A stretch of 64,000 nucleotides of DNA from Desulfovibrio desulfuricans. Its GTDB lineage: Bacteria > Desulfobacterota > Desulfovibrionia > Desulfovibrionales > Desulfovibrionaceae. The stretch covers positions 1,252,001 to 1,316,000 of the forward strand of contig NZ_CP036295.1 in the NCBI RefSeq assembly GCF_004801255.1, written 5' to 3'. The translations under genes and the position numbers were made by a program. The notes below the pieces were generated by a model. It saw only the letters and a list, made by a program, of their open reading frames with translations, was not told the origin of the DNA and made no database searches. Positions 2,681 through 26,624 of this stretch are shown here, piece by piece; positions within the stretch are counted from its first letter, which is position 1; every line of letters starts with the position of its first letter.

Positions 2681-2740
2681 GGGGGCAACAATAGGGGCAT
2701 ATTTCTGGCTTGCCCCTCATTATATCAGGAGTTGCCCCTA
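2681..2740. repeat. Integrase arm-type repeat cluster, left end
   Basis: GGGGGCAACAATAGGGGCA at 2681-2699, plus an inverted copy of the core (AGTTGCCCCTA, 2730-2740) overlapping the int start. The same 19-bp unit with two changes lies at 14477-14495 at the far end. The position next to int suggests arm-type integrase or excisionase sites; this role is inferred. Confidence 0.5.
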
Positions 2741-3948
2741 TGAGTCTGACAGATGCCGCCATACGAGCCGCAAAGCCTGGCAACAAGACTATCAAGGTTT
2801 TTGACGGAGGCGGGCTTTACCTTGAAGTTGCCCCAAGTGGTGGGCGATGGTGGAGACTGAAATACCGCTTTGCAGGGAAAGAGCGCCGGATCAGTCTTGG
2901 CGTGTACCCAGCCGTTGGCCTGCGTGAAGCCCGAAAACGCCGTGACGATGCCAAGGAGCTATTGGCCCAAGGCATTGACCCAAGCGCCCACAAGCAGGCG
3001 GAAAAAGAGGCTGTAAAGCGCCAACAGGAGTCAGCCGCACAGACCTTTAAAGCTGTGGCCTTGCAGTGGTGGGAAAGCTATGGCCCTACACTTGCCGAAC
3101 GCACACGCGACCGTACACAACGCTATTTAGATCAAGACCTACTTCCCGCCTTGGGTGATAAGCCTGTGGCAAGCATTATGCCTGCCGACCTCCTGACCGT
3201 TGCCGCCCCGGCAGAAAAACGGGGTGCCTCAAATACTGCCCACAAAATAATGACCATTTGCAACCAGGTAATGCGGCACGCATATTTGTGCGGATTGACG
3301 CCCGTTAATGTGGCTGCTGGCCTGCGTGGTGCATTGCGTCCGCTCAAACACAAGCCCCGCCCGGCCATTGTCGAGAAAAAAGAGTTTGGCCGCTTGCTGC
3401 GCGATATTTGGGCCTATGAAGGATACCCGTCTGTGCAATGGTATTTGCGGATATTGCCATTCGTTGCGACCCGGCCCGGTGAATTGCGGCTTGCCAAATG
3501 GGGGGAGATTGATTTCTCGGAAAACGTGTGGCGACTTCCAGAAGGCCGAATGAAGATGCGCAAAGCTTGGGCCGTACCCCTTGCCCCGCAGGTGGTGAAG
3601 ATGCTCCGAGCGTTGGAACAATTCTCTGGCGGTGATGCTGATGCCCCGCTTTTTCCGTCTGTGCGCTCAAAGTCTGCCGTCATTGTGGACGCCGCAGGAG
3701 GTGCCGCGCTGCGGGCTATGGGCTGGCAGCAAGAAACTGTGTGCCTGCATGGGCTGCGTTCGACCTTTTCGACGATAGCCAACGAAAGCGGGCAGTGGCG
3801 ACCAGACGTTATAGAAGGCTGCCTTTCCCACACAGACCGCGACAGCGTGCGCCGCGTTTATAATCGCGCAACCTTTTGGGAAGAACGCCGGGCCTTGATG
3901 GAATGGTGGGCAGATTACCTGGACAGGTTGAAGGAAGACAAAGTTTAG
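2740..3948 (+). CDS. int: P4-type tyrosine recombinase (integrase)
   Basis: 402 aa. The start at 2740 is preferred over 2710 because AGGAG lies at 2727-2731. The N-terminal domain (residues ~1-85, MSLTDAAIRAAKPGNK..GLYLEV) is the arm-binding DUF4102 type. The catalytic residues are all visible: R245 (TRPGELR), H337-x-x-R340 (LHGLRSTF), H364 (LSHTDRD) and the nucleophile Y374 (RRVYNRA). It catalyses site-specific integration and excision. It reads away from tRNA-Leu, whose 3' end is the expected target. The protein appears intact. Confidence 0.93.
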   Translation: MSLTDAAIRAAKPGNKTIKVFDGGGLYLEVAPSGGRWWRLKYRFAGKERRISLGVYPAVGLREARKRRDDAKELLAQGIDPSAHKQAEKEAVKRQQESAAQTFKAVALQWWESYGPTLAERTRDRTQRYLDQDLLPALGDKPVASIMPADLLTVAAPAEKRGASNTAHKIMTICNQVMRHAYLCGLTPVNVAAGLRGALRPLKHKPRPAIVEKKEFGRLLRDIWAYEGYPSVQWYLRILPFVATRPGELRLAKWGEIDFSENVWRLPEGRMKMRKAWAVPLAPQVVKMLRALEQFSGGDADAPLFPSVRSKSAVIVDAAGGAALRAMGWQQETVCLHGLRSTFSTIANESGQWRPDVIEGCLSHTDRDSVRRVYNRATFWEERRALMEWWADYLDRLKEDKV

Positions 3949-15037: not shown

Positions 15038-15075
15038 AAAAGTGTTTTTTTGCACTGTTGCAAAAAAACACTTTT
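15038..15075. repeat. 17-bp perfect inverted repeat upstream of islA
   Basis: AAAAGTGTTTTTTTGCA, 4-nt loop CTGT, then the exact complement, followed by more T. It contains two of the three palindromic boxes described for 15040-15131. It may work as paired activator sites; the AT-rich stem with a T tail could also act as a weak terminator. Confidence 0.6.
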
Positions 15076-15131
15076 TTAATTTATTTAATAAAATAAGATT
15101 ATTACTAAAATTTTGTTGCAAAATTACAACA
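15040..15131. promoter_or_regulatory. Upstream activator boxes of islA (three copies)
   Basis: Boxes of the form NNKTG-(T-rich N8)-CAMYR: AAGTG-TTTTTTTG-CACTG (15040-15057), TGTTG-N8-CACTT on the other strand (15056-15073) and TGTTG-CAAAATTA-CAACA (15114-15131). The last is centred about 110 bp before the predicted start site, the usual place for a sigma-54 activator. Like boxes precede the dehydrogenase operon at 19412-19594. Confidence 0.6.
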
Positions 15132-15207
15132 TGGGAACGCTTTGGGGAAAAGTGAATATTGAGGGAAAATTTAAGTAAAATGTTTAAAAACATATAGTTA
15201 GCAGTAG

Positions 15208-15223
15208 TGGCACGAATGATGCT
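15208..15223 (+). promoter_or_regulatory. Sigma-54 promoter of islA
   Basis: TGGCACGAATGATGCT: GG (15209-15210), 10 bp, GC (15221-15222); one mismatch to TGGCACG-N4-TTGCW. It lies 70 bp before the islA start. Confidence 0.8.
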
Positions 15224-15293
15224 CATAGATGGGTATTGCGATGAATATCACAAGCATCTCGCTTGAATATACTCACCATCCAGGAGTTTAATC

Positions 15294-17768
15294 ATGAGTC
15301 AGTGCGGTTGCTGCATGTCCCCCCAGGAAGAGCGCGTTGCCAATAAAAGCGTTGATCGCAAAGGGCGCGAACGTGTTTACGGCATTCTGGAACAAAACCA
15401 GTTCACCCTTCCCCATGTGGACGTTGAACGCGCCAAGTATTTCACCGAATCCATGCGCGGGACCGAAGGCGAACTGCTGACCCTGCGTTGGGCCAAGGCC
15501 CTGAAAAACGTGGCGGAAAAAATCACCGTCTACATCACCCCCAATCAGCTTATCGCTGGACGCGTGGGCAAGTTTGGGCGTTACGGCATCCTGTATCCTG
15601 AAATCGACGGCGACTTTTATCGCGAGGTGCTGGCCGACCTTGAGCACCGCGACAAAAGCCCCTTCCAGATTTCACAGGAAGACATCAAGGTTGTTATGGA
15701 AGAGATTGCCCCCTACTGGGAGGGCAAGACCTACCACGAGCACCTCAACAAAACCCTGCCAGCCGAAATACGCAACGTCACCTATGTGGACGAGCGCGGC
15801 CTCAAGTCCAAGTTTGTGGTGAGCGAAACCTCCTCGTACCGCTCGGCCCTGCAGTGGGTGCCGGACTACGAAAAGGTCATCAAGCGCGGCTTTCTCGACA
15901 TTCAAAAAGAGGCCCGCGAAAAGCTGGCCACCCTCGATCTGACCAATTCCGTTGATCTGTGGGATAAAAAGCCCTTCCTCGAAGCCATGATCATCGTGTG
16001 CGACGCCATCATGATCTGGGCCAAGCGCCACGCCGATCTGGCCCGCGATCTGGCCGCCAAAGAGGCCAACGCCAAGCGCAAGGCCGAGCTGCTGCAGATT
16101 GCCGCAACCTGCGACCACGTGCCCGCGCATCCTGCCCGCAGCTTCCGCGAAGCGATGCAGTGCCAGTGGTTTGTGCAGATGTTCTCGCGCATTGAGCAAA
16201 AGGCCAGCGCCATTATTTCCAATGGTCGTATGGATCAGTACCTGTACCCCCTGTACAAAAAGGACATTGAGGAAGGCAAACTTACCCGCGAAGAAGCCAA
16301 GGAACTGCTTGAATGCATGTGGGTGGACATGGCCCAGTTTATCGACCTGTACATCAACCCTACGGGCGTTGAATTTCAGGAAGGCTACGCCCACTGGGAG
16401 GCCGTAACCATCGGCGGGCAGACCCCCGACGGCGAAGACGCCACCAATGACCTGACGTACCTGTTCCTTGAATCCAAGCGCGAGTTTCCGCTTAACTATC
16501 CCGACCTTGCGGCCCGCATCCATTCCCGCTCGCCCGAACGCTTTTTGCGCGAAGTGGCCCTGACCATCAAGGACGGCTCGGGCTTTCCCAAGCTGATCAA
16601 TGACGAAGAAGTGGTGTTCCTCAACACCATCAAGGGTTGCCCGGTTAATGAAGCTCTGGACTACGCCGTTTCGGGCTGCACCGAAACCCGCATGCCCAAC
16701 CGCGATACCTACACCTCGGGCTGCGTGTACGTGAACTTTGCCACCGCGCTTGAAATGACCCTGTACAATGGCCGCATGCAGCACTACGGCGACGAGGTCG
16801 TGGGCATTGAAACGGGCGAAGCGACCAGCTTCAAGGGCTGGGAGGAATTCTACGCAGCCTATCAGGCCCAGCATCTCAACCTGCTGCGCAAGGCCTTCCA
16901 GCAGCAGCACGTGGTGGACAAGCTGCGCCCGCAGCACTTTGCCGCGCCGCTTTCGTCCGTGCTGCACAACCTGTGCATGGAAAACCTCATGGACCTGCAC
17001 TGCGAAAAAATCCCCGGCGGTGTGGACTACTCGTACTTTGAATTTTTGGGCTACGGCACGGTGGTAGACTCGCTTGCCGCCATCAAAAAGCTGGTGTTTG
17101 ACGACAAGCGCCTGTCCATGCAGGAAGTTGTGCAGGCCTGCAAGGCCGACTTCAAGGGGTATGAACCCGTGCGCGAAATGCTGCGCAACGCTCCCTGCTA
17201 CGGCAACAACGACCCCTATGTGGACAGCATTGCCAAGGACGTGGATCGCTTTACCCAGGTGGAGGCAGAAAAAAGCTCGCGCGACCGGGGCGTGCATGTG
17301 GACGTGCGTTACGTGCCCATCACCTCGCACGTGCCTTTTGGCAAGGTGGTTTCGGCCACGCCCAACGGCCGCCATGCCTGGACGGCGCTTTCCGACGGCT
17401 CGTCCGCCTCGCACGGCGCGGACAAAAACGGCCCCACCGCTGTGCTGCTCTCCAACTATCACTCCAAAAACTACGGCATGATCAACCGCGCTTCGCGCCT
17501 GCTCAACATCAAGCTGTCGCCCAAGTGCGTGGCGGGTGATGACGGCACGCAAAAGATCGTCAACCTCATACGTACCTGGTGCGACCTCAAGCTGTGGCAC
17601 TTGCAGTTTAATATCGTGAACAAGCAGACCCTGCTCAACGCCCAGAAAGAACCCGACAACTACCGCAGCCTGCTGGTGCGCATTGCGGGCTACAGCGCGT
17701 ACTTCTGCGATCTGTCGCGTGATCTGCAGAACGACATCATCGACCGTACGGAACACACCCAGTTCTAG
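15294..17768 (+). CDS. islA: Isethionate sulfite-lyase (glycyl radical enzyme)
   Basis: 824 aa, PFL-like glycyl radical enzyme; AGGAG precedes the ATG. It cleaves isethionate to sulfite and acetaldehyde, feeding sulfite respiration. Seen: radical cysteine and base C462/E464 ([10 protein letters not shown]), glycyl radical site G799 (RIAGYSAYF), and R183, Q187 (SSYRSALQW), W368 and R672. From memory, Bilophila wadsworthia IslA (also called IseG) uses R189, Q193, W374, C468, E470, R678 and G805; every position here is shifted by exactly six. This separates it from choline TMA-lyase and other family members. It is followed by the activating enzyme and preceded by a sigma-54 promoter. The Cys-rich N-terminus (SQCGCC) is unusual. 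Confidence 0.9.
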
Positions 17769-17874
17769 GTCGCTTGCGGCGGGCGGTTTGCCCCTTCGGC
17801 TGCGTCAGGTTCCTTGCCGCAATGCATGCCGCCCGCCGGGTTCTCTCCGCAATACGCAGCAGACAAACCCAAAA

Positions 17875-17894
17875 GGGGAGGGGGCGCCCTCCCC
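17875..17894 (+). other. Hairpin between islA and islB
   Basis: GGGGAGGG - GGCG - CCCTCCCC, a very stable stem without a T run, inside the 204-bp gap. A second inverted repeat (GGCGGGCGG near 17778, CCGCCCGCC near 17830) spans the first part of the gap. These may protect islA mRNA or lower islB expression relative to islA. Confidence 0.55.
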
Positions 17895-17972
17895 GCAAAA
17901 TTTCCCTCCTGCAGGGCTTGCCCTTTCTTTCAACCGGTGCGCCAGGGCTGGCCGCACACGAAGGATACCCCC

Positions 17973-18869
17973 ATGACTGACGCGCAAGTGCAAGGTATTG
18001 TTTTTAATATCCAAAAATTCAGCGTGCACGATGGCGAAGGCATCCGCACCCTGGTATTTTTAAAAGGCTGCCCCCTGCGTTGTCGCTGGTGCAGTAATCC
18101 TGAATCGCAAAACCTTCAGCCAGAGCACGCCTTTAACCCCTCGCGCTGTCTCACGGCAGAGGTGTGCGGGCGTTGCCTTACGGCCTGTAAAACGGGCGCT
18201 TTGAGCCTGGTCAACGGCCTGATCATGCACGACCGCAGCAAGTGCCGCGAGTGTTTTGACTGCGTGCGCGCCTGTCCCTCTGGTGCGCAGAGCGTGTACG
18301 GCGAAACCATGAGTGTCGCGCAGGTGCTCGATAAGGTTGAAGAAGACGGCGTATTTTATCATCGCTCCGGCGGCGGCATGACCCTGTCTGGCGGCGAGGC
18401 CATGATGCAGCACGAGTTTGCCGCTGCACTGCTGCGCGAGGCCCGCAGGCATCATATCAACACCACCATTGAGACCTGCGGCTGTTATCCCTACGAATAC
18501 CTGCACGAGGCGTGCAAGTACCTGGACAAACTTATTTTTGACATCAAAAGCCTTGACCCTGTGCTGCACAAACAGCATACGGGCGTGGACAACATGCTGA
18601 TCTTGCGTAATTTTGCGCGAGTCTGCGAGGATTTTCCGCAGTTGCCCATCCTGGTGCGCACGCCCGTTATCCCCGGCTTTAACGACAACGAGGATGATAT
18701 CCTCGCCATACGCGAATCTATCCCCCGGCGTCCCAACATAGAGTATGAACTGTTGGCCTACCACCGCATGGGGCAGCCCAAGTACGCCTACCTTGGGCGG
18801 GAGTACGCCCTGGATGGAGCCCGGCTTGATGACCAGAAGATACAGCGGCTTAGGGACATCTCCGCCTGA
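17973..18869 (+). CDS. islB: IslA-activating radical SAM enzyme
   Basis: 298 aa; ATG 17973 with AAGGA upstream. The radical SAM triad C33-x3-C37-x2-C40 (GCPLRCRWC) is followed by a ferredoxin-like insert with two 4Fe-4S motifs (C59, 65, 68, 72 and C91, 94, 97, 101), typical of activases of the choline-lyase/glycerol-dehydratase/IslA group. GGGMTLSGGEAMMQ is the SAM-binding GGE region. It installs the glycyl radical on IslA G799. It shares islA's transcript. Confidence 0.92.
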   Translation: MTDAQVQGIVFNIQKFSVHDGEGIRTLVFLKGCPLRCRWCSNPESQNLQPEHAFNPSRCLTAEVCGRCLTACKTGALSLVNGLIMHDRSKCRECFDCVRACPSGAQSVYGETMSVAQVLDKVEEDGVFYHRSGGGMTLSGGEAMMQHEFAAALLREARRHHINTTIETCGCYPYEYLHEACKYLDKLIFDIKSLDPVLHKQHTGVDNMLILRNFARVCEDFPQLPILVRTPVIPGFNDNEDDILAIRESIPRRPNIEYELLAYHRMGQPKYAYLGREYALDGARLDDQKIQRLRDISA

Positions 18870-18895
18870 TGACGCCCTGCAGCAATATTGCCCGC

Positions 18896-18935
18896 AACAG
18901 CAACGCCAGAGCAAAGACGCCCTGGCGTTGTTGTT
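18896..18935 (+). terminator. Probable terminator of islAB
   Basis: Stem of 14 bp with one G-T: AACAGCAACGCCAG / CTGGCGTTGTTGTT around a 12-nt loop, 27 bp after the islB stop. The T tract is interrupted. Confidence 0.6.
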
Positions 18936-19411
18936 CGTAATATTTGTGTGTTAAAGACGATTAATGATTCGTGCGGGCATTATTGGGTTGGCTGCATGCT
19001 CAAGGTAGTTGCGCAGCGTCTGTCCTCGGCACTCCTTTGCAGCATGCCGCCGGAAGATGGGCCACTGCCGAAATAGAACGTGCATGCACAGCGCCTCAAA
19101 AAACTCAGAGGCTCGCATTTGCAGCTGGGTTTGAGGGTGCGCCCCTTTGCTGTGCAACCCCAGTTTCTGGCTGGTGTGCCAGTCTGGCAGCAGGTACGTT
19201 TGTTTGACAAAATTCGCAAAGCTATTTGTGCAAAGCAGTTGCGGAGCACTCCGCCGAGGACGCGGTCTGCAACCCGTGGCACATCCCGCCTCTTCGGTAT
19301 TCCCTAATATCCCCCCTGATTTGCCTGGCCCAGCTTGCCCGTTTTATACTTGCGCCGCATGTCCTGAACGCAGCTGCAAGGGCCTCATTGGTAACCATCT
19401 GTTTGCCGGAT
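18936..19411. other. Gene-free stretch between islAB and the dehydrogenase operon
   Basis: No frame here has a ribosome site or recognisable product. With the AT-rich DNA that follows it makes about 1 kb between the two sulfonate operons. It may be the remains of a lost gene; nothing recognisable remains. Confidence 0.5.
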
Positions 19412-19594
19412 TGTTGCAAAAATTAATAACTGATCAATTTTTTTAATAAACGCTTGAGCTTTTCGTTGATGCTTTTTTGCAACAAGAAACCAGACTTTTG
19501 TGTATTTTTGCACAACATACTCAGGTGCTGTACTGATAACTCGCTAAAATAAAACAAGTAATGTACAATTATCGCATGTTGTTTTATTGCAACA
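19412..19594. promoter_or_regulatory. Upstream activator boxes of the dehydrogenase/ABC operon (four copies)
   Basis: TGTTG-CAAAAATT-AATAA (19412-19429, other strand), TGATG-CTTTTTTG-CAACA (19467-19484), TTGTG-TATTTTTG-CACAA (19498-19515) and TGTTG-TTTTATTG-CAACA (19577-19594). All share the 18-bp layout of 5-bp half sites around a T-rich 8-bp centre ending in G, as before islA. They lie 270-440 bp before the -24 element, an acceptable distance for an enhancer-binding protein. Confidence 0.6.
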
Positions 19595-19857: not shown

Positions 19858-19873
19858 TGGCCTGCTTTTTGCT
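19858..19873 (+). promoter_or_regulatory. Sigma-54 promoter of the dehydrogenase/ABC operon
   Basis: TGGCCTGCTTTTTGCT with GG (19859-19860), 10 bp, GC (19871-19872) and a perfect TTGCT -12 box. 78 bp before the start codon, nearly the same distance as at islA. Confidence 0.75.
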
Positions 19874-19951: not shown

Positions 19952-20719
19952 ATGCTTTTAGCAGCTTTGTTTGATCTCTCGCGTAAGACAGCCCTTGTTA
20001 CCGGCGGCAATTCTGGTTTGGGGCTGGCTATGGCCCATGCTCTGGGGCTGGCAGGTGCAGAAGTCATTCTTGTAGCCAGACGGCAAGACGCGCTGCAGCG
20101 GGCTGCTGCGCAACTGCAGGCAGAGGGGGTGAGCGTTCAGACCTGTTCCGCTGATCTTTCCGGGCCAGAGCTTGCGCTTGCGTGCGGCAGGTCAATTGTA
20201 AACAGGTTTGGGCCTGTTGATATCCTGATCAATGCCGCCGGCGTCAATCTTCGTCAGCCGTTCAGTCAGGTAACCCCCGAATCATGGGGCGCACAGCTCA
20301 GCCTTCACCTTTCCGCTCCTTTCTTTCTTTCCCAGATTCTGGCTCCCCACATGCGTCACAGGGGATGGGGCAGAATAATCAATATCGCTTCCCTCCAGTC
20401 TTTCCGCGCATTTGCCGACAGTGCCCCTTATGGGGCGGGCAAGGGGGGGATTGTCCAGCTTACCCGGGCCATTGCCAGAGAATGGTCGCCGTACGGAATA
20501 ACCTGCAATGCCATAGGCCCCGGGTTTTTCCCCACAGAACTGACGCGTCCGGTATTTGAGAATAGCGAGCTGGCCGAAAAGAACGCTTCCCAGACATGCG
20601 TTGGGCGCAACGGCAGGCTTGATGATATTTACGGTTGCACCGTGTTTCTGGCCAGCGACGCCTCCGCGTACATAACCGGTCAGGTAATTATGGTTGATGG
20701 TGGTTTTAGTGCCCGTTGA
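19952..20719 (+). CDS. Short-chain dehydrogenase/reductase (SDR), possible sulfonate oxidoreductase
   Basis: 255 aa; ATG 19952 with GGAG at 19943. Cofactor motif TGGNSGLG (17-24), NAAG (94-97) and catalytic S147, Y160, K164 (YGAGK). The closest general match is the gluconate-5-dehydrogenase-like group. The first gene of a sigma-54 operon with an ABC importer, 1 kb from islAB. It may interconvert sulfoacetaldehyde and isethionate (as the unrelated SarD or the SDR IsfD do elsewhere) or oxidise another imported hydroxysulfonate. The substrate is inferred from context only. Confidence 0.75.
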
Positions 20720-20776: not shown

Positions 20777-21841
20777 ATGAAAAAACTATGTGCCGCCTTT
20801 ATGTTGCTGGCAAGTCTGGCCGCAGGGTTGTTGCCCGAGGCCGCCGTTGCCGAAGAAAAACCCGTTGTCCGTACCAGCGCCCAACCTTGTCTGCATGGTT
20901 TTCCCATGTGGTATGCCGAAAAACAGGGCTGGCTTAAAGACGCCCCCTTTACCGTAAAGTTCATGCTTTTTGCCTCTGGCGCACCCCAGACGGAAGCTCT
21001 GGCCGCTGATCAGTGGGACATCGGGTCCATGGGCACGGTGCCAACCATGATGGCCAGCATGCGCTATGGCTACAAGCTCATCGGCGTGTCCAACGAGGAA
21101 GGCGCTACAAACGATTTGTGGGTAAGGCCCGATTCGCCCCTGCTCAAGCACAAGGCTGCACTGGCCGGTTTTCCGGAAATCATAGGCAATGCAGATGACT
21201 GGAAGGGCAAGAAAATTCTGGCTACCACCGTTTCCACTGGCCACTACGCCCTGACCGCCACGCTAAAAGCTTTGGGCCTTAACGACAGCGATGTGTCCAT
21301 TGTACATATGGAACAGGGCCAGGCCATGACAGCCTTTAGCGCAGGCCAGGGGGACATCCTGCAGTTGTGGGCCCCGCTCAGCTATGTGGCAGAAGCCAAG
21401 GGCTGGACCAAGGTTTCGTCGGGCATGGCGGCCAAGGTTCGTATTGCCGGCGGCATCGGCGCGCGCAAGGACTTTGCGGAAAAGCACCCCGACCTGGTGG
21501 TTGCCTGGCTTGGCATCTACATGCGCGTTATCGAAGGCATGAAGACCAACCCCGAGCCGTACGTGAAGCCCCTGCTTGAATACTTTAACAGTTACTGCGG
21601 GCTTGAACTTACCGAAGAACAGGTGCGGATGGAATTCAAGTATCGCCCGTTGTTCAGCGTGAGCGAGCAGGTCAGCGCCCTTGAAGACCCAGCCAAGCTG
21701 GCTGCCTGGATGAGCGGCGTTGCCAACTTCATGCTGGATCAGGGCCGTATCACCAAGAAGGAGTTTGACCGTTACGTCAAGGCCAACTTCTTCATTGATC
21801 CCAGTTTCATGAAGAAGCTGGCTGCAGAAACCTCAAAGTAA
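20777..21841 (+). CDS. ABC importer periplasmic binding protein (NitT/TauT type)
   Basis: 354 aa with a Sec signal peptide (MKKLCAAFMLLASLAAG.., cleavage likely after AVA near residue 26). The mature part follows the TauA/SsuA/NMT1-like pattern (GFPMWYAEKQGWL, GAPQTEALAADQWDIGSMGTVP is split over residues ~65-95). Good AAGGAG site. With the two permeases and ATPases it forms one importer; sulfonate or a related small anion is the likely ligand. Confidence 0.85.
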   Translation: MKKLCAAFMLLASLAAGLLPEAAVAEEKPVVRTSAQPCLHGFPMWYAEKQGWLKDAPFTVKFMLFASGAPQTEALAADQWDIGSMGTVPTMMASMRYGYKLIGVSNEEGATNDLWVRPDSPLLKHKAALAGFPEIIGNADDWKGKKILATTVSTGHYALTATLKALGLNDSDVSIVHMEQGQAMTAFSAGQGDILQLWAPLSYVAEAKGWTKVSSGMAAKVRIAGGIGARKDFAEKHPDLVVAWLGIYMRVIEGMKTNPEPYVKPLLEYFNSYCGLELTEEQVRMEFKYRPLFSVSEQVSALEDPAKLAAWMSGVANFMLDQGRITKKEFDRYVKANFFIDPSFMKKLAAETSK

Positions 21842-21930: not shown

Positions 21931-22779
21931 ATGACGCCCATCCATGAACAGAAAAACGACGGCAGCGAAGAGGTGAGCCTTGAAATTCAGAAGGCCAACT
22001 ACCTTGCAACCGCAGCCAAGGAAAACTGGATATCAATGGTGAGCTTTGCGGTTTTTATTCTGGTATGGGAAATGATCTGCCGGTTTGAGATCATCGGCCC
22101 CTACCAGCTCGTACCGCCGTCAGAAGTCATCACCGTTTTTTTTGAAAAATTCACGCAAGTTAATCCCGACGGCGGTCTGCTGCAGCAGCATGCCGCAGCC
22201 AGCCTGCTGCTGGCATTGACCGGTTTTGTGGCTGCCGTGGTTATCGGGGTTCCGCTGGGGCTTTTTATGGGTTGGTACCCCAGGGTCAACATGCTTGTGC
22301 GGCCCATATTTGACGCCATCAGGCCCATCCCGCCCATTGCATGGATTCCCATTGCCATTCTGTGGCTGGGCATCGGCATGCCCGCAAAGGCATTTATCAT
22401 TTTTCTGGCTGCCTTTGTGCCCTGTGTAATCAATTCCTATACCGGCATACGCCTTACCAATCCCGTGCTTATCCGCGTAGCGGAAATTTACGGTGCTTCC
22501 AATTTTGAAACATTTCGCAAAATTGGCGTGCCCTCGGCAATCCCCATGATTTTTACAGGCATGAAGCTTTCGCTCAATGCGGCGTGGACAACCCTTGTGG
22601 CCGCAGAGCTGCTGGCTGCCTCGGTTGGGCTGGGCTTTATGATCCAGCAGGGCAGACGTCTTGCCAGACCTGACATCATCATTGTCGGCATGCTGACCAT
22701 CGGCCTGTTGGGTGCGCTGATGTCCTGGATTCTCACAAGGATAGAAGCACGTTTTGCCTCGTCAAGGAGGCTCTCATGA
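21931..22779 (+). CDS. ABC importer permease 1 (TauC/SsuC-like)
   Basis: 282 aa with about six membrane helices and the EAA-type loop (AEIYGASNFETFRKIGVPSA) that contacts the ATPase. The sequence WIPIAILWLGIG is typical of NitT/TauT permeases. GAGGAG site. It overlaps the next permease gene by 4 bp. It has an N-terminal extension of ~30 hydrophilic residues. Confidence 0.88.
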   Translation: MTPIHEQKNDGSEEVSLEIQKANYLATAAKENWISMVSFAVFILVWEMICRFEIIGPYQLVPPSEVITVFFEKFTQVNPDGGLLQQHAAASLLLALTGFVAAVVIGVPLGLFMGWYPRVNMLVRPIFDAIRPIPPIAWIPIAILWLGIGMPAKAFIIFLAAFVPCVINSYTGIRLTNPVLIRVAEIYGASNFETFRKIGVPSAIPMIFTGMKLSLNAAWTTLVAAELLAASVGLGFMIQQGRRLARPDIIIVGMLTIGLLGALMSWILTRIEARFASSRRLS

Positions 22780-23555
22780 ATGGATTTATCAAGGCCCATT
22801 CCGCCTGGCTTGCGCCTATGGCATCTATTTGTGCTTTTGTGGTGCTGTGGGGGCTTGTGTCCCTCAAGGTCAACCCGGAATTTTTGCCTTCGCCCGCGAT
22901 GGTGTGGCATGAATTTATCCGGCTTTGCCATGTCCCTGTTGGCGGCACCAGCCTTATTGGCCATGTGGGCTACAGCCTGCAACGGGTATTGATAGCCTTT
23001 GGCCTCGCCATACTCATGGGGCTGCCACTGGGCCTGCTGATGGGGTGGAGCAGAGTGTGCGAAAAAATAGTCTCCCCCATTTTTGAATTGCTGCGCCCCA
23101 TTCCGCCCATTGCATGGATACCCATTGCCATTCTCTGGCTTGGCGTTGCGGAAGGCTCAAAGATTTTCATCTGTTTTGTAGGCGCTTTTGTCATCATGAT
23201 TCTCAACTCATACACCGGCATGCGCTATGTAGACCCTCTGCTGATAGATGCGGCGCGATCCTTTGGCGCCAGCCGGTCGCAGCAGTTCTTCAACGTGGCT
23301 GTGCCTGCCTGCATGCCGTCCATATTTGCGGGCGTGCAAAATGCCCTTTCCATGGCCTGGATGTGCGTGCTTGCGGCAGAGATGGTCGGCGCGCGCGAGG
23401 GGGTCGGCTTTATCATCATTCAGGGCATGGATCTTAACAAGTCCTCCATGATTCTCGTGGGAATGATACTCATCGGTGTGGTGGGCTCCCTGCTGGCGGC
23501 GGCTTTGCGCTGGGTTGAACGTGTGCTCTGCCCCTGGAGGAGGGAAATGGTATGA
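22776..23555 (+). CDS. ABC importer permease 2 (TauC/SsuC-like)
   Basis: 259 aa, same family as the preceding protein (shared IPIAILWLG and an EAA loop DAARSFGASRSQQFFNVAVP), but clearly not identical; probably the second half of a heterodimeric membrane channel. ATGA overlaps link it to both neighbours. Confidence 0.88.
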   Translation: MNGFIKAHSAWLAPMASICAFVVLWGLVSLKVNPEFLPSPAMVWHEFIRLCHVPVGGTSLIGHVGYSLQRVLIAFGLAILMGLPLGLLMGWSRVCEKIVSPIFELLRPIPPIAWIPIAILWLGVAEGSKIFICFVGAFVIMILNSYTGMRYVDPLLIDAARSFGASRSQQFFNVAVPACMPSIFAGVQNALSMAWMCVLAAEMVGAREGVGFIIIQGMDLNKSSMILVGMILIGVVGSLLAAALRWVERVLCPWRREMV

Positions 23556-24322
23556 ATGCCGAAAAAAAAGTCAAAATTGCCTGCAATGACGTTTCCAAAA
23601 CTTTTTATGTGCCGGGGCAAAAACAGCTTTTGCATGTACTGAACAAGGTTTCACTGCAGGTGTACGAAAACGAGTTTCTGGTCATTCTTGGGCCTGGGCA
23701 AAGCGGAAAAACCGTGCTGCTCAACTGCGTGGCGGGGCTTCTGGAACCCACTGCCGGATCAATCTGCATCAACGATGTGCCCATTTCAGGGCCGGGTACA
23801 GACCGGGGCATGGTGTTTCAGCGCTATGCGCTCTTTCCGTGGAAAACAATAGAGCACAATGTGGCCTTTGGTCTTGCAGTGCGCGGTGTTTCCTTAAAGG
23901 AACGGCTTAAAATCGCCCACAAATATATAGAGCTTGTGGGACTTACAGGTTTTGAAAAGGCCTACCCGGCGCAGCTCTCGGGCGGCATGAAGCAGCGCGT
24001 GGGCATTGCCCGTGCCTACGCCAATGACCCGGACATCCTGCTGATGGACGAACCATTTGGCGCGCTGGACGCCCAGACCCGTTACGCGATGGAACAGGAA
24101 CTGCGCAGCATATGGGAAAAAGAAAAACGCACTGTCTGCTTTGTAACCAATAATATTGAAGAAGCCATTTACCTTGGCGACAGGGTTGTGGTTATGTCCG
24201 CCATGCCGGGCAAGGTAAAAACAGAGTACAACATTGATATTCCGTCACCTCGCGAGTACACGCATCCCACATTTCTTGCCATGCGCAAACAGATTTCAGA
24301 AGACACCGATTTGGTGCTGTAG
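23552..24322 (+). CDS. ABC ATPase 1: canonical signature, switch His replaced by Asn
   Basis: 256 aa. Walker A GPGQSGKT (47-54), Q-loop Q90, signature LSGGM (142-146), Walker B ILLMDEP with catalytic Glu. The switch (H-loop) histidine, expected in FVTHD, is N200 (FVTNNIEEA). NitT/TauT-type nucleotide-binding subunit. The start overlaps permease 2 by 4 bp. On its own it would be poorly active; pairing with ATPase 2 supplies what it lacks. Confidence 0.88.
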   Translation: MNAEKKVKIACNDVSKTFYVPGQKQLLHVLNKVSLQVYENEFLVILGPGQSGKTVLLNCVAGLLEPTAGSICINDVPISGPGTDRGMVFQRYALFPWKTIEHNVAFGLAVRGVSLKERLKIAHKYIELVGLTGFEKAYPAQLSGGMKQRVGIARAYANDPDILLMDEPFGALDAQTRYAMEQELRSIWEKEKRTVCFVTNNIEEAIYLGDRVVVMSAMPGKVKTEYNIDIPSPREYTHPTFLAMRKQISEDTDLVL

Positions 24323-24331
24323 GAGACAAGT

Positions 24332-25105
24332 ATGTTATTTGGAAATAAAGCCACCTACGCCGCAAACCGGGAAGTAAAGGTTTCGGTTTCCAGTCTGACC
24401 AAGCGGTACGACGACCTGCTGGTGCTCAATGATATCAACTTCGATATCTATAAGGGCGAAATGCTGTGCATTGTGGGGCCGACTGGCTGCGGAAAAACAA
24501 CATTCTTGAACTGTCTTTCACGTTTTATTCCCATTACGCACGGATCCATAAATGTCGATGGAGAATCCGCCGACCCCAGAAAACACAATATTGCTTTTGT
24601 GTTTCAGGAAGTGTCCGCCATTCCCTGGCTTACAGTGGAAGACAATATCCGTTTTGGTCTGCGCATCAAGCGGCTGCCCGAAGATGAAATTGAAAAACGT
24701 GTTGAACGCATGCTTGATGTGGTTGGCCTTATGAAATACCGCACCTACTTTCCCCAGCAGCTTTCGGCCAGCATGGAGCAGCGGGTGGTTATTGCCAGAA
24801 ATTTTGCCATCAATCCCGACCTGCTGCTTATGGACGAACCCTATGGGCAGCTTGACGTAAAACTGCGTTACTACCTTGAAGACGAGCTTATGCGCATCTG
24901 GAAGGAGCTTGGAAGCACTGTTGCCTTTATTACCCACAATATAGAAGAAGCCGTGTATCTTGCGGAGCGTATCCTGATACTTTCTCCCAAGCCGTCCACC
25001 ATCAAGGAAGAAGTCATTGTGGATTTGCCCCGACCACGGCAGTTTGATGATCCCAAGTTTGTTGCCATCCGCGACTATGTGACAGAAAAAATCAAATGGT
25101 GGTGA
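24332..25105 (+). CDS. ABC ATPase 2: intact switch His, degenerate signature
   Basis: 257 aa with AGGAG. Walker A GPTGCGKT (49-56), Q92, Walker B LLLMDEP and H202 (FITHNIEEA) are intact, but the signature is LSASM (144-148) in place of LSGGM/Q. In a heterodimer its ATP site would be completed by the canonical LSGGM of ATPase 1, while the opposite site has both defects. Same operon; last gene before the activator. Confidence 0.88.
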   Translation: MLFGNKATYAANREVKVSVSSLTKRYDDLLVLNDINFDIYKGEMLCIVGPTGCGKTTFLNCLSRFIPITHGSINVDGESADPRKHNIAFVFQEVSAIPWLTVEDNIRFGLRIKRLPEDEIEKRVERMLDVVGLMKYRTYFPQQLSASMEQRVVIARNFAINPDLLLMDEPYGQLDVKLRYYLEDELMRIWKELGSTVAFITHNIEEAVYLAERILILSPKPSTIKEEVIVDLPRPRQFDDPKFVAIRDYVTEKIKWW

Positions 25106-25199: not shown

Positions 25200-26624
25200 A
25201 TGCAAAGACCAACAGTGCTTGCCGAGTATATGGAACAACTGTGCGATACGTTTCAGGACGCCATATGCGTTACCGATCACGAAGGTCAGGTGGTTCTGGT
25301 TAATACCCGCCATTCTGAACTTACGGGAATTCCAAAGGAAATGATGATCGGCAAACGCATACAGGACATGGTGCAAAGCGGTGTCTTTGACGTGGTGCTC
25401 AACCCGCGCATCGTTGAATCCGGCAGGCCGTTTTCAAGTGTGCAAAACCTTTATAATGGCCGCACGATGTTGCTGGACGGTCACCCCGTCAAGGATGAAA
25501 ACGGCAGCGTTATCTACGTTGTTACTGTTATACGCGATGTCACGGCGCTGGCTGAAATGCGCGAGGAAATAGCATCGCAGAGGGAACTGCTGGAAACGTT
25601 TCAATCCATGAACCATGAAGGCAAATCGGGCAGTCAGTATCCGCGTGTTGTAAAAAGCCCGGTTATGCAGCGCCTGTATGCCGAGGTGTCAGGCATTGCG
25701 GCAACAGATGCAACGGTTCTGCTTCAGGGCGAAACCGGCGTCGGCAAGGACATGGTGGCCCGGCATATCCACCAGCAAAGCCAGAGGGCCAATGCGCCGT
25801 TTATCAAGGTAGATTGCGGTAGTATCCCGGAAAACCTGATTGAATCAGAGCTATTTGGCTATATGTCCGGCAGCTTTTCCGGCGCCAGCCGGAGCGGAAA
25901 AGCCGGCCTGATTGAGGTGGCCTCGGGCGGCACCCTGTTCTTGGATGAGGTGGGGGAGCTGCCCATGCCCATGCAGTCCCGCCTGCTGCGCCTGATTCAG
26001 GACAAGGAAATACAGCGCGTCGGTGCAACAGCTCCCAAAATGGTGGATGTACGTATTGTGGCGGCGTCCAACAAGGATCTGGAACGTGAGGTCGACAGGG
26101 GGATGTTTCGGGCCGATCTGTATTTCAGGCTCAAGGTTGTGGTCGTTACCGTGCCGCCGCTTCGCGAGCGCAAGGTCGAAATTCTGCCGCTGGCCGAGGG
26201 TTTTCTGGCTTATTATTCCAGAAGATACCGAAAAAATGCATGGTTTTCCGAATCCGCAGAAAAAATTCTGCAGGAATACCGCTGGCCTGGCAATGTGCGT
26301 GAGCTTGAAAACCTTGTGCAGGGGCTGGTTGTGACCTGCAAGAGGGGCGTTATTGACGCCGCTGACCTCGCAGGCATCAGCCACGAACCCTGCCAAGCGT
26401 CGGCAGGTGAAAACTGCTGGTACCCCAAGATTGAGGGACGGTCGCTCAAAAGCATTATGCGTGATGTGGAAAATGCCGTCATTGAGCAGGGCTTGAAACG
26501 CTATGGGTCGCTGCGTGAGCTTTCCCGCCATTTGCAGATGGACCGCAGCACGTTGTTCAGAAAAATCAAAGGCAGGGAATCTGCCAAACAGGATGAAAGT
26601 TTGCCCCGCAAAAACTGTCAGTAG
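25200..26624 (+). CDS. Sigma-54 enhancer-binding activator with PAS domain
   Basis: 474 aa, GGGGAG site. Residues ~8-115 form a PAS domain (ITDHEGQ-like CVTDHEGQVVLVNTRHSELTG region), then a short coiled coil, the AAA+ domain (Walker A GETGVGKD 177-184, Walker B GTLFLDE 244-250) and a C-terminal Fis-type HTH (SLRELSRHLQMDRSTLFRKI). The sigma-54 contact loop reads GSFSGA (224-229) instead of GAFTGA. It follows the ABC genes by 94 bp and is the natural candidate to bind the boxes before islA and the SDR gene. The PAS domain may sense a small molecule or redox state. Confidence 0.9.
   Translation: MQRPTVLAEYMEQLCDTFQDAICVTDHEGQVVLVNTRHSELTGIPKEMMIGKRIQDMVQSGVFDVVLNPRIVESGRPFSSVQNLYNGRTMLLDGHPVKDENGSVIYVVTVIRDVTALAEMREEIASQRELLETFQSMNHEGKSGSQYPRVVKSPVMQRLYAEVSGIAATDATVLLQGETGVGKDMVARHIHQQSQRANAPFIKVDCGSIPENLIESELFGYMSGSFSGASRSGKAGLIEVASGGTLFLDEVGELPMPMQSRLLRLIQDKEIQRVGATAPKMVDVRIVAASNKDLEREVDRGMFRADLYFRLKVVVVTVPPLRERKVEILPLAEGFLAYYSRRYRKNAWFSESAEKILQEYRWPGNVRELENLVQGLVVTCKRGVIDAADLAGISHEPCQASAGENCWYPKIEGRSLKSIMRDVENAVIEQGLKRYGSLRELSRHLQMDRSTLFRKIKGRESAKQDESLPRKNCQ

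Follow-up and report, generated by a model that had tools for sequence, protein, structure and literature searches.

In a 64-kb stretch of the complete 3.25 Mb genome of Desulfovibrio desulfuricans (G000:C1:1252001-1316000, the whole of which is called the window here), 18-bp palindromic boxes precede two operons, one for a glycyl radical enzyme and its activase (hpsGH) and the other for a short-chain dehydrogenase/reductase (SDR), a sulfonate-type ATP-binding cassette (ABC) importer and a sigma-54 activator. Judged from the sequences, the boxes are probably bound by PAS-AAA+-Fis activators, named HpsR here, which switch on the uptake and cleavage of 2,3-dihydroxypropane-1-sulfonate (DHPS) via sigma-54. 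Boxes and sigma-54 promoters are found together at both operons, both are conserved in relatives, and HpsR-like genes co-occur with hpsG.

Identity of the glycyl radical enzyme

The enzyme encoded at 15294-17768 had been labeled islA in a sequence-only reading of the window, which placed it in a self-contained isethionate regulon. It contains a glycyl radical domain, its activase gene adjoins, and its best match among solved structures is 6lon (1593 bits), which we take to be the HpsG structure from Bilophila (the PDB name reads only 'PFL2/glycerol dehydratase family'), with 5ymr (1216 bits) and 7kq3 (1167 bits) behind. The latter two are the isethionate lyases of D. vulgaris (PMC6453916) and B. 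wadsworthia, respectively. The enzyme is of the HpsG type, closer to the solved HpsG than to IslA/IseG, and is predicted to cleave DHPS; the islA label fails, and the gene is hpsG. HpsG is a paralogue of IslA (60.6% identity) that converts DHPS to sulfite and hydroxyacetone (PMC8397734, ISME J 2021). Three glycyl radical enzymes are encoded in the genome. The true islA lies 1.8 Mb from hpsG (G000:C1:3086833-3089289; L003 4834-7290) and scores 1521 bits with 7kq3, 1492 with 5ymr and 1224 with 6lon; the isethionate reading of the window is not supported. The third (L116 7295-9742) is neither HpsG nor IslA and has no close counterpart among solved structures, the best being CutC (405 bits).

The solved-structure scores were used because the NCBIfam model NF048011, which was rejected for this purpose, cannot separate the two types: it gives 1503.5 bits for window:15294-17768 and 1546.2 bits for the IslA type (L003:4576-7293), both far over its cut-off of 1000. 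Its name, '(2S)-3-sulfopropanediol dehydratase', also misfits the published sulfite-lyase reaction. Automatic annotation may mislabel HpsG and IslA.

Boxes and sigma-54 promoters in the window and in relatives

All seven 18-mers of the sequence-only reading were found in the window, three upstream of hpsG (from 15040, 15056 and 15114) and four upstream of the SDR gene (from 19412, 19467, 19498 and 19577). When each box was scored in leave-one-out fashion with a strand-symmetric matrix along the + strand of the window, 15056, 15114, 19467, 19498 and 19577 were not equaled by any non-box position, while 34 non-box positions scored as high as 15040 and 5 as high as 19412. The observation is confirmed for the five strong boxes and for both sigma-54 promoters, while 15040 and 19412 are weak. 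We rejected 19412 as a true site, because its right half is absent, its score is weak and only 9/18 of its positions are conserved in the relative G068. One perfect inverted repeat has the boxes 15040-15057 and 15056-15073 as its two arms. A matrix made from the three hpsG boxes placed 19577 and 19467 at the top of the window, with 19498 fifth behind 29234 and 63081, and a matrix made from the four SDR boxes placed 15114 and 15048 at the top, with 15056 sixth; 15048 is a register within the inverted repeat that holds 15040/15056. One position outside the seven boxes reaches a score of 13.

The boxes at 15114 and 19577 are each the best copy before their operon, as had been noted. The box center, which had been described as ending in G before CA, does so in four of the seven (15040, 19467, 19498 and 19577) and not in the others, the centers of 15056 and 15114 ending in A. 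The consensus is TGTTGCAA-NN-TTGCAACA, that is, TGT-N12-ACA. The loose pattern, with 3 mismatches in 10 allowed, has 318 matches in the window against 249 expected, so that bare half sites alone are weak evidence.

Both sets of boxes lie upstream of conserved sigma-54 promoters, as the sequence-only reading had stated. The box centers are 160, 144 and 86 bp upstream of the -24 GG at hpsG, and 438, 383, 352 and 273 bp upstream of it at the SDR operon. These distances fall in the usual range for enhancer sites. In the alignment of the hpsG upstream regions of five genomes, 32/38 positions of the 38-bp element, 12/18 of box 15114 and 14/16 of the promoter are invariant, compared with 83/229 in the rest, and TGTTG-N8-CAACA is kept in every row at the position of box 15114. 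In the two-genome alignment of the SDR region (window and G068), the boxes 19467, 19498 and 19577 retain 15/18, 17/18 and 16/18 positions and the promoter 15/16, against 285/493 in the remainder.

Table 1. Features of the hps region, in window coordinates.
Feature	Position	Strand	Basis or remark
38-bp element, perfect 17-bp inverted repeat with a gap of 4	15038..15075	.	arms 15038-15054/15059-15075
Box TGTTGCAAAATTACAACA, best copy upstream of hpsG	15114..15131	.	leave-one-out; conservation
Sigma-54 -24/-12 promoter of hpsGH, TGGCACGAATGATGCT	15208..15223	+	
hpsG, predicted DHPS sulfite-lyase (islA in the sequence-only reading)	15294..17768	+	PFL-like and Gly_radical domains; solved-structure scores
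hpsH, radical S-adenosylmethionine activating enzyme	17973..18869	+	NF048010, 468.9 bits vs cut-off 430
Fourth SDR-side box of the sequence-only reading	19412..19429	.	weak, probably no site
Box TGATGCTTTTTTGCAACA	19467..19484	.	leave-one-out; conserved in G068
Box TTGTGTATTTTTGCACAA, half sites TTGTG/CACAA	19498..19515	.	leave-one-out; conserved in G068
Box TGTTGTTTTATTGCAACA, best copy upstream of SDR-ABC operon	19577..19594	.	leave-one-out; conserved in G068
Sigma-54 promoter of SDR-ABC-activator operon, TGGCCTGCTTTTTGCT	19858..19873	+	
SDR dehydrogenase resembling HpsO, (R)-DHPS dehydrogenase	19952..20719	+	adh_short_C2; structure matches
ABC substrate-binding protein, taurine/sulfonate type	20777..21841	+	SsuA_fam 104.9 bits, under cut-off 163.5
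ABC permease	21931..22779	+	BPD_transp_1
ABC permease	22776..23555	+	BPD_transp_1
ABC ATPase	23552..24322	+	ABC_tran
ABC ATPase	24332..25105	+	ABC_tran
HpsR1 (EBP1, P0001), PAS - sigma-54 AAA+ - Fis-type helix-turn-helix (HTH)	25200..26624	+	domain search

The conservation extends beyond these alignments. We collected 79 loci with HpsG- or IslA-type enzymes, 78 of which were typed by tblastn score against the two enzymes of this genome. For a hold-out test, 68 of the 79 could be used (at least 150 bp upstream, a usable + strand match and at least 60% identity), and p values were obtained from 100 dinucleotide shuffles per region, with a floor of 1/101. The seven-box matrix of the window found a site of p ≤ 0.05 in 22/27 HpsG-type upstream regions and in 8/41 IslA-type regions. 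Together with the alignments, this shows that the strong boxes are conserved in relatives, a check that the sequence-only reading had asked for. In the 74 of 79 loci that could be used for counting half-site arrangements (the others having less than 150 bp upstream or no usable + strand match), exact TGTTG-N8-CAACA occurs in 8 upstream regions; of nine other arrangements, eight give 0 and one gives 1. A second sample, drawn from the order, comprised 30 hpsG upstream regions, among them that of the window and some of the first sample. A TGGCA-type sigma-54 promoter lies 76-115 bp before the start in 29 of them, the exception being L151, and a box with a score of at least 12 is present in 26.

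We also searched the whole genome with the box form TGTTGNWWWWWWNCAACA, the AT-rich center of which was chosen after the boxes had been seen. It has three exact sites, at hpsG, at the SDR operon and in one of a pair of boxes before a chemoreceptor gene. Allowing one mismatch raises the number to nine, of which six belong to four promoters, and allowing two raises it to 52, compared with 14 for the reversed control. Exact TGTTG-N8-CAACA without the AT restriction has nine sites, three of them in the regulon set (reversed control, 3). Counts with the loose consensus were discarded as too permissive (254 matches against 90 for the reversed control at up to two mismatches). The boxes are thus not commonplace in unrelated spacers in their AT-centered form, although stray good matches exist. 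The fourth promoter is that of an operon for an amidohydrolase, a major facilitator superfamily (MFS) transporter and an activator (L001), which ends 46 kb upstream of hpsG. In the alignment of this promoter region from five genomes, the boxes keep 11, 17 and 12 of 18 positions and the promoter 15/16, compared with 115/461 in the rest. The regulon can therefore not be called self-contained, as had been proposed, since the same boxes occur at the chemoreceptor gene and at this operon, whose activator is 71% identical to HpsR1.

Of the remaining matches with up to one mismatch, those at 1382978, 1400744 and 2117294 were rejected for want of the TTGC/GCAA core; two of these stretches do not reach a score of 13 and one scores 14.8. 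Three more of the 52 were inspected: 1329063, which has no score of 13 either, and 2158709 and 1703182, described below. Another activator gene lies upstream of site 1083438, and site 358009 is in a spacer; a near match of the isl/hps type, AGTTGCAAAATTGCGTCA (L196 4438-4455), lies downstream of the activator gene L196 2912-4291. A lone box before a second chemoreceptor gene (L131 2010-2027; 2158709) was also rejected: despite its score of 18.5, it is absent in 6/6 orthologues of 80-84% identity, and single good boxes thus do arise by chance. This case and the 318 loose matches in the window are what could be said for the view that all the boxes are chance palindromes in AT-rich spacers, to which we give hardly any credence. 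The hold-out, genome-wide and footprint tests contradict it, the five strong boxes refute it by their conservation, and it suits only 19412 and, if taken as a site of its own, perhaps 15040.

HpsR activators, box types and further promoters

The sigma-54 activator reported at 25200 is present as the last gene of the SDR-ABC operon. The sigma-54 AAA+ domain of HpsR1 is well above the cut-off (PF00158, 221.7 bits against 20.2), while its C-terminal Fis-type HTH is slightly below the gathering score (HTH_8, E 0.00015, 21.9 bits against 22). Its best NCBIfam match is PrdR, with 360.7 bits against a cut-off of 795. The activator of the amidohydrolase-MFS operon, HpsR2 (P0002, in L001), is 71% identical to it over its length, and the recognition helices are MDRSTLFRKI in HpsR1, MDRSTIFRKV in HpsR2 and INRSTVFRKL in P0003, the activator at the islA locus. 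A gene for a DUF4037 protein (L001 10814-11869) follows HpsR2 after a 14-bp gap. In a tree of 43 activators (a quick, midpoint-rooted type with a long-branch warning, which includes P0003 and from which DVU2827 itself is absent), 12 IslA-linked activators, P0003 among them, form one set and the HpsG-linked activators the other; HpsR1 falls with the latter, outside the IslA-linked clade. HpsR1 pairs with a protein from G068, and HpsR2 with proteins from G026, G011 and G056.

HpsR-like genes and hpsG occur together across 297 genomes sampled from the order. HpsR-like proteins were called at 500 bits or more, a cut set after the tree was seen (G210 just misses with 485.5 bits), among the best five candidates per genome, and hpsG among the best three matches per genome at 70% identity or more, partial copies included. 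Among the matches listed, 37 genomes have both, four have hpsG alone, four the activator alone and 252 neither (Fisher p = 4e-38, a value inflated by kinship).

We infer binding by HpsR, activation and the inducer as follows. A small clade of one-component sigma-54 activators, whose PAS domain may sense a DHPS-related signal, would use the boxes as upstream activating sequences. HpsR would then bind the boxes and remodel sigma-54 RNA polymerase at the -24/-12 promoters. This would switch on hpsGH, with cleavage of DHPS to sulfite and hydroxyacetone, and likewise the operon for the HpsO-like SDR, the sulfonate-type importer and HpsR1 itself. HpsR1 and HpsR2 would be near-equivalent paralogues that use the same boxes, in which case the regulon would span at least four promoters, namely those of hpsGH, SDR-ABC-hpsR1, amidohydrolase-MFS-hpsR2 and the chemoreceptor gene, the last by a route that the mechanism leaves unexplained.

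The true islA locus (L003 4834-9723) has its own activator, P0003, with the canonical GAFTGA loop, and divergent amidohydrolase-MFS genes. Upstream of islA (L003 4401-4592) lie three sites of the form GTCGCAA-NN-TTGCGAC with 1, 1 and 2 mismatches. The first two are the only sites in the genome with up to one mismatch; at up to two mismatches it shows no excess, with 14 sites against 20 for the reversed control. Among 5-bp dyads in the upstream regions of 21 islA genes (our own and 20 from relatives), GCAAA-TTTGC (10) and CGCAA-N2-TTGCG (9) are found most often, and with up to one mismatch the TCG form occurs in 10/21 and the TTG form in 2/21, both of the latter a mixed site. Within the genus, the isethionate and DHPS boxes therefore have a common frame, and a single base in each half site sets them apart, GTCGCAA at islA and GTTGCAA at the hps promoters. 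The distant IslA loci L063, L064, L073 and L075 carry the TTG form, and the shift is thus not universal. It could still be argued that the window holds an isethionate regulon complete in itself and run by the activator at 25200, as neither the boxes nor the sigma-54 promoters nor the activator are missing and the enzyme is a close IslA paralogue that NF048011 does not separate from IslA. This is very improbable and already largely refuted, because the enzyme of the window is not of the IslA type, islA lies elsewhere with P0003 and GTCGCAA boxes, and the box of the window is found at further promoters as well.

It is also conceivable, if quite improbable, that the boxes belong to another co-occurring regulator, such as a repressor or nucleoid protein. 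Such a regulator would account for the boxes at the chemoreceptor promoter, which lacks sigma-54 elements, for the box in G189, where no HpsR match was found, and for the missing link between box and activator among distant loci. However, within the genus the half sites track the activator, with TTG at hps promoters and TCG at islA promoters, boxes lie upstream of -24/-12 elements at three promoters (hpsG, SDR and amidohydrolase), and an HpsR-like gene is present in 37 of the 41 genomes with hpsG among the matches listed.

Gene order in relatives bears on the roles of the two paralogues. In G011, G026, G056 and G098, hpsG, hpsH and the genes for the amidohydrolase, the MFS transporter and HpsR2 are contiguous, while in this genome hpsGH is followed by SDR-ABC-HpsR1 and the amidohydrolase-MFS-HpsR2 part is separated from it by 46 kb. 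A phage-type integrase gene (window 2710-3948) lies within these 46 kb, and a mobile element may have split a cluster that is contiguous in close relatives. In L055 (Desulfovibrio sp. A2) and L057, hpsGH leads on to SDR and ABC genes of the same orientation, and the hpsH-SDR gap holds a box (scores 17.5 and 13.5), whereas in L038 and L042 hpsGH is followed by genes of a tripartite ATP-independent periplasmic (TRAP) transporter (DctP, DctM) and an HpsR. The enzyme and this activator clade thus occur with three different types of transporter. Among matches with E ≤ 1e-120, only HpsR1 is present in G068 and only HpsR2 in G011, G026 and G056; all four carry the same box type, the chemoreceptor pair included.

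These arrangements could mean that HpsR2 alone runs hpsGH, the amidohydrolase-MFS operon and the chemoreceptor gene, while HpsR1 runs only SDR-ABC, the likeness of the boxes being inherited from the duplication. The contiguous clusters with HpsR2 fit this division of labor, as does G068, in which HpsR1 stands with SDR-ABC and without hpsG among the matches listed. We nevertheless think it unlikely, since G068 has kept the tandem chemoreceptor boxes without an HpsR2 match, the recognition helices of the two activators are nearly identical, and the boxes of their promoters score alike.

The chemoreceptor gene (dCACHE type, L002 9435-11456) has its boxes at L002 9247-9285, the whole spanning G000:C1:1045246-1047455. 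The tandem boxes, 21 bp apart, are present in 6/6 orthologues of at least 85% identity (our own included), all from genomes with HpsR1 or HpsR2, and 14/18 and 13/18 of their positions are invariant across the six genomes, against 54/177 elsewhere. Among orthologues of 68-70% identity, those of G098 (HpsR2 present) and G062 (no activator match) have one box each, and that of G096 (no activator match) has no box with a score of at least 14. Upstream of the gene, TAAA-N17-CGATA occurs in 6/6 genomes; the window and L001-L003, together 240 kb of strand sequence, contain it twice, here and once elsewhere in the window. By its likeness to the sigma-28 consensus, we take this to be a sigma-28-like promoter. 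No sigma-54 promoter was found for the divergent gene. We regard it as possible, if doubtful, that the duplicated activators share operators at four or more promoters, are kept from the isethionate activator by TTG/TCG, and also act independently of sigma-54 on a sigma-28 chemoreceptor promoter; if so, DHPS sensing would tune swimming as well as respiration. Searches of literature listings for a link of chemoreceptors to sulfonates or to sigma-28 yielded nothing of use here. Some activator targets were marked as being without sigma-54 promoters by Kazakov et al. (PMC4641369), which is a precedent for the situation at the chemoreceptor gene.

Several observations weigh against control of these genes by HpsR through the boxes. 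At the chemoreceptor gene, whose boxes are the best of all, no sigma-54 promoter was found in 5/6 genomes, with a weak candidate in G056 (p = 0.056). Both activators have the loop GSFSGA where GAFTGA is usual, and the variants expected to stay active include GAFSGA and GSFTGA and not, in the accessible part of the source, the double variant (PMC4641369). Five IslA-linked activators of the Mailhella type fall in the HpsG-linked half of the tree, on a long branch. G189 has hpsG and a box with a score of 20.7 and no HpsR match, in an assembly of about 170 contigs. Since the SDR-ABC-HpsR1 operon of G068 occurs without an hpsG-type enzyme among the matches listed, its role may lie with some other sulfonate or with a different use of DHPS. 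Four of the 30 hpsG promoters (G044, G064, G034 and G082) have no box with a score of at least 12, and some of the 26 boxes are poor (13.0 in G059, 12.9 in G003). In the 74 regions, N8 is not the only enriched spacing (11 with up to one mismatch, compared with 9 for N11 and 8 for N5), and poly-T dyads equal or outrank TGTTG. Among loci with less than 80% enzyme identity, the exact box occurs in 1/15 with an activator in the stretch and in 2/37 without, so that box and activator are not linked among distant loci. Besides the unconserved match at 2158709, a stray match, TGTTGAAATTTTACACAA, with a score of 19.0 and without an apparent role lies at the 3' end of an open frame (L136 1983-2000; G000:C1:1703182). 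In addition, the relatives are not independent samples.

Comparison with known systems

The SDR of the window matches 9pvq, which has a generic SDR name, with 327.5 bits, HpsO (8wwf) with 278.6 bits and a chain named gluconate 5-dehydrogenase with 271.7 bits, HpsO being its best match among structures named for DHPS. The nearest solved structure of the binding protein is the taurine-binding protein 6ssy (60.8 bits). HpsO belongs to the aerobic HpsOPN pathway of marine bacteria (PMC11131964), for which the accessible part of the description names no regulator type. That pathway oxidizes DHPS to sulfolactaldehyde, while the SDR of the window stands beside a glycyl radical lyase system. The HpsGH system of B. 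wadsworthia has the same enzyme and activase, in a DHPS-induced four-gene cluster, with sulfite and hydroxyacetone as products, and the accessible part of its description contains no regulator, promoter or SDR-ABC operon (PMC8397734).

Enhancer-binding proteins of the PrdR, NorR and NifA type have the same AAA+ and HTH architecture as HpsR1, although HpsR1 is below the PrdR cut-off. PAS-type transcriptional regulators have been described beside islAB in B. wadsworthia (PMC8667426) and in the iseG operon of Desulfitobacterium (PMC9888536). In searches limited to openly licensed literature, in the parts accessible, we found no description of a regulator of hpsG; the naming of an activator, its operators and its promoters thus makes this control directly testable. 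HpsG turns DHPS, a breakdown product of sulfoquinovose, into sulfite and thereby leads to H2S in anaerobes, including gut bacteria (PMC8397734, PMC12890257), and the regulon proposed here would add a pathway able to feed hydrogen sulfide production to those under sigma-54 control of a known kind. The chemoreceptor link, if real, would tie sulfonate respiration to motility.

The closest known system is the DVU2827 regulon predicted in Desulfovibrio vulgaris Hildenborough (Kazakov et al. 2015, PMC4641369). As in our case, a one-component sigma-54 activator (with GAFSGA) lies beside a glycyl radical enzyme operon, DVU2824, and boxes and sigma-54 promoters were predicted; the regulon also contains the amidohydrolase DVU2820, with an MFS transporter added in D. 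desulfuricans and D. piger. That study also describes motif groups in which 9, 11 or 12 bp separate the half sites TGT and ACA. By gene make-up, the counterpart of the DVU2827 regulon in this genome is the islA locus with P0003 (L003) and not the window. Kazakov et al. assigned the regulon to pyruvate metabolism and transport, with the enzyme called pyruvate formate-lyase, and the accessible part of their paper describes no hpsG, DHPS, SDR-ABC or chemoreceptor target. The isethionate lyase IseG of D. vulgaris was demonstrated by Xing et al. 2019 (PMC6453916), and is presumably DVU2824 (Q727N1). The pair of paralogues, together with the one-base operator shift relative to the isethionate system, would be a clean case of duplicated sigma-54 activators separating. 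We conclude that the window most likely holds part of a DHPS regulon under two paralogous activators, which is akin to the DVU2827 kind.

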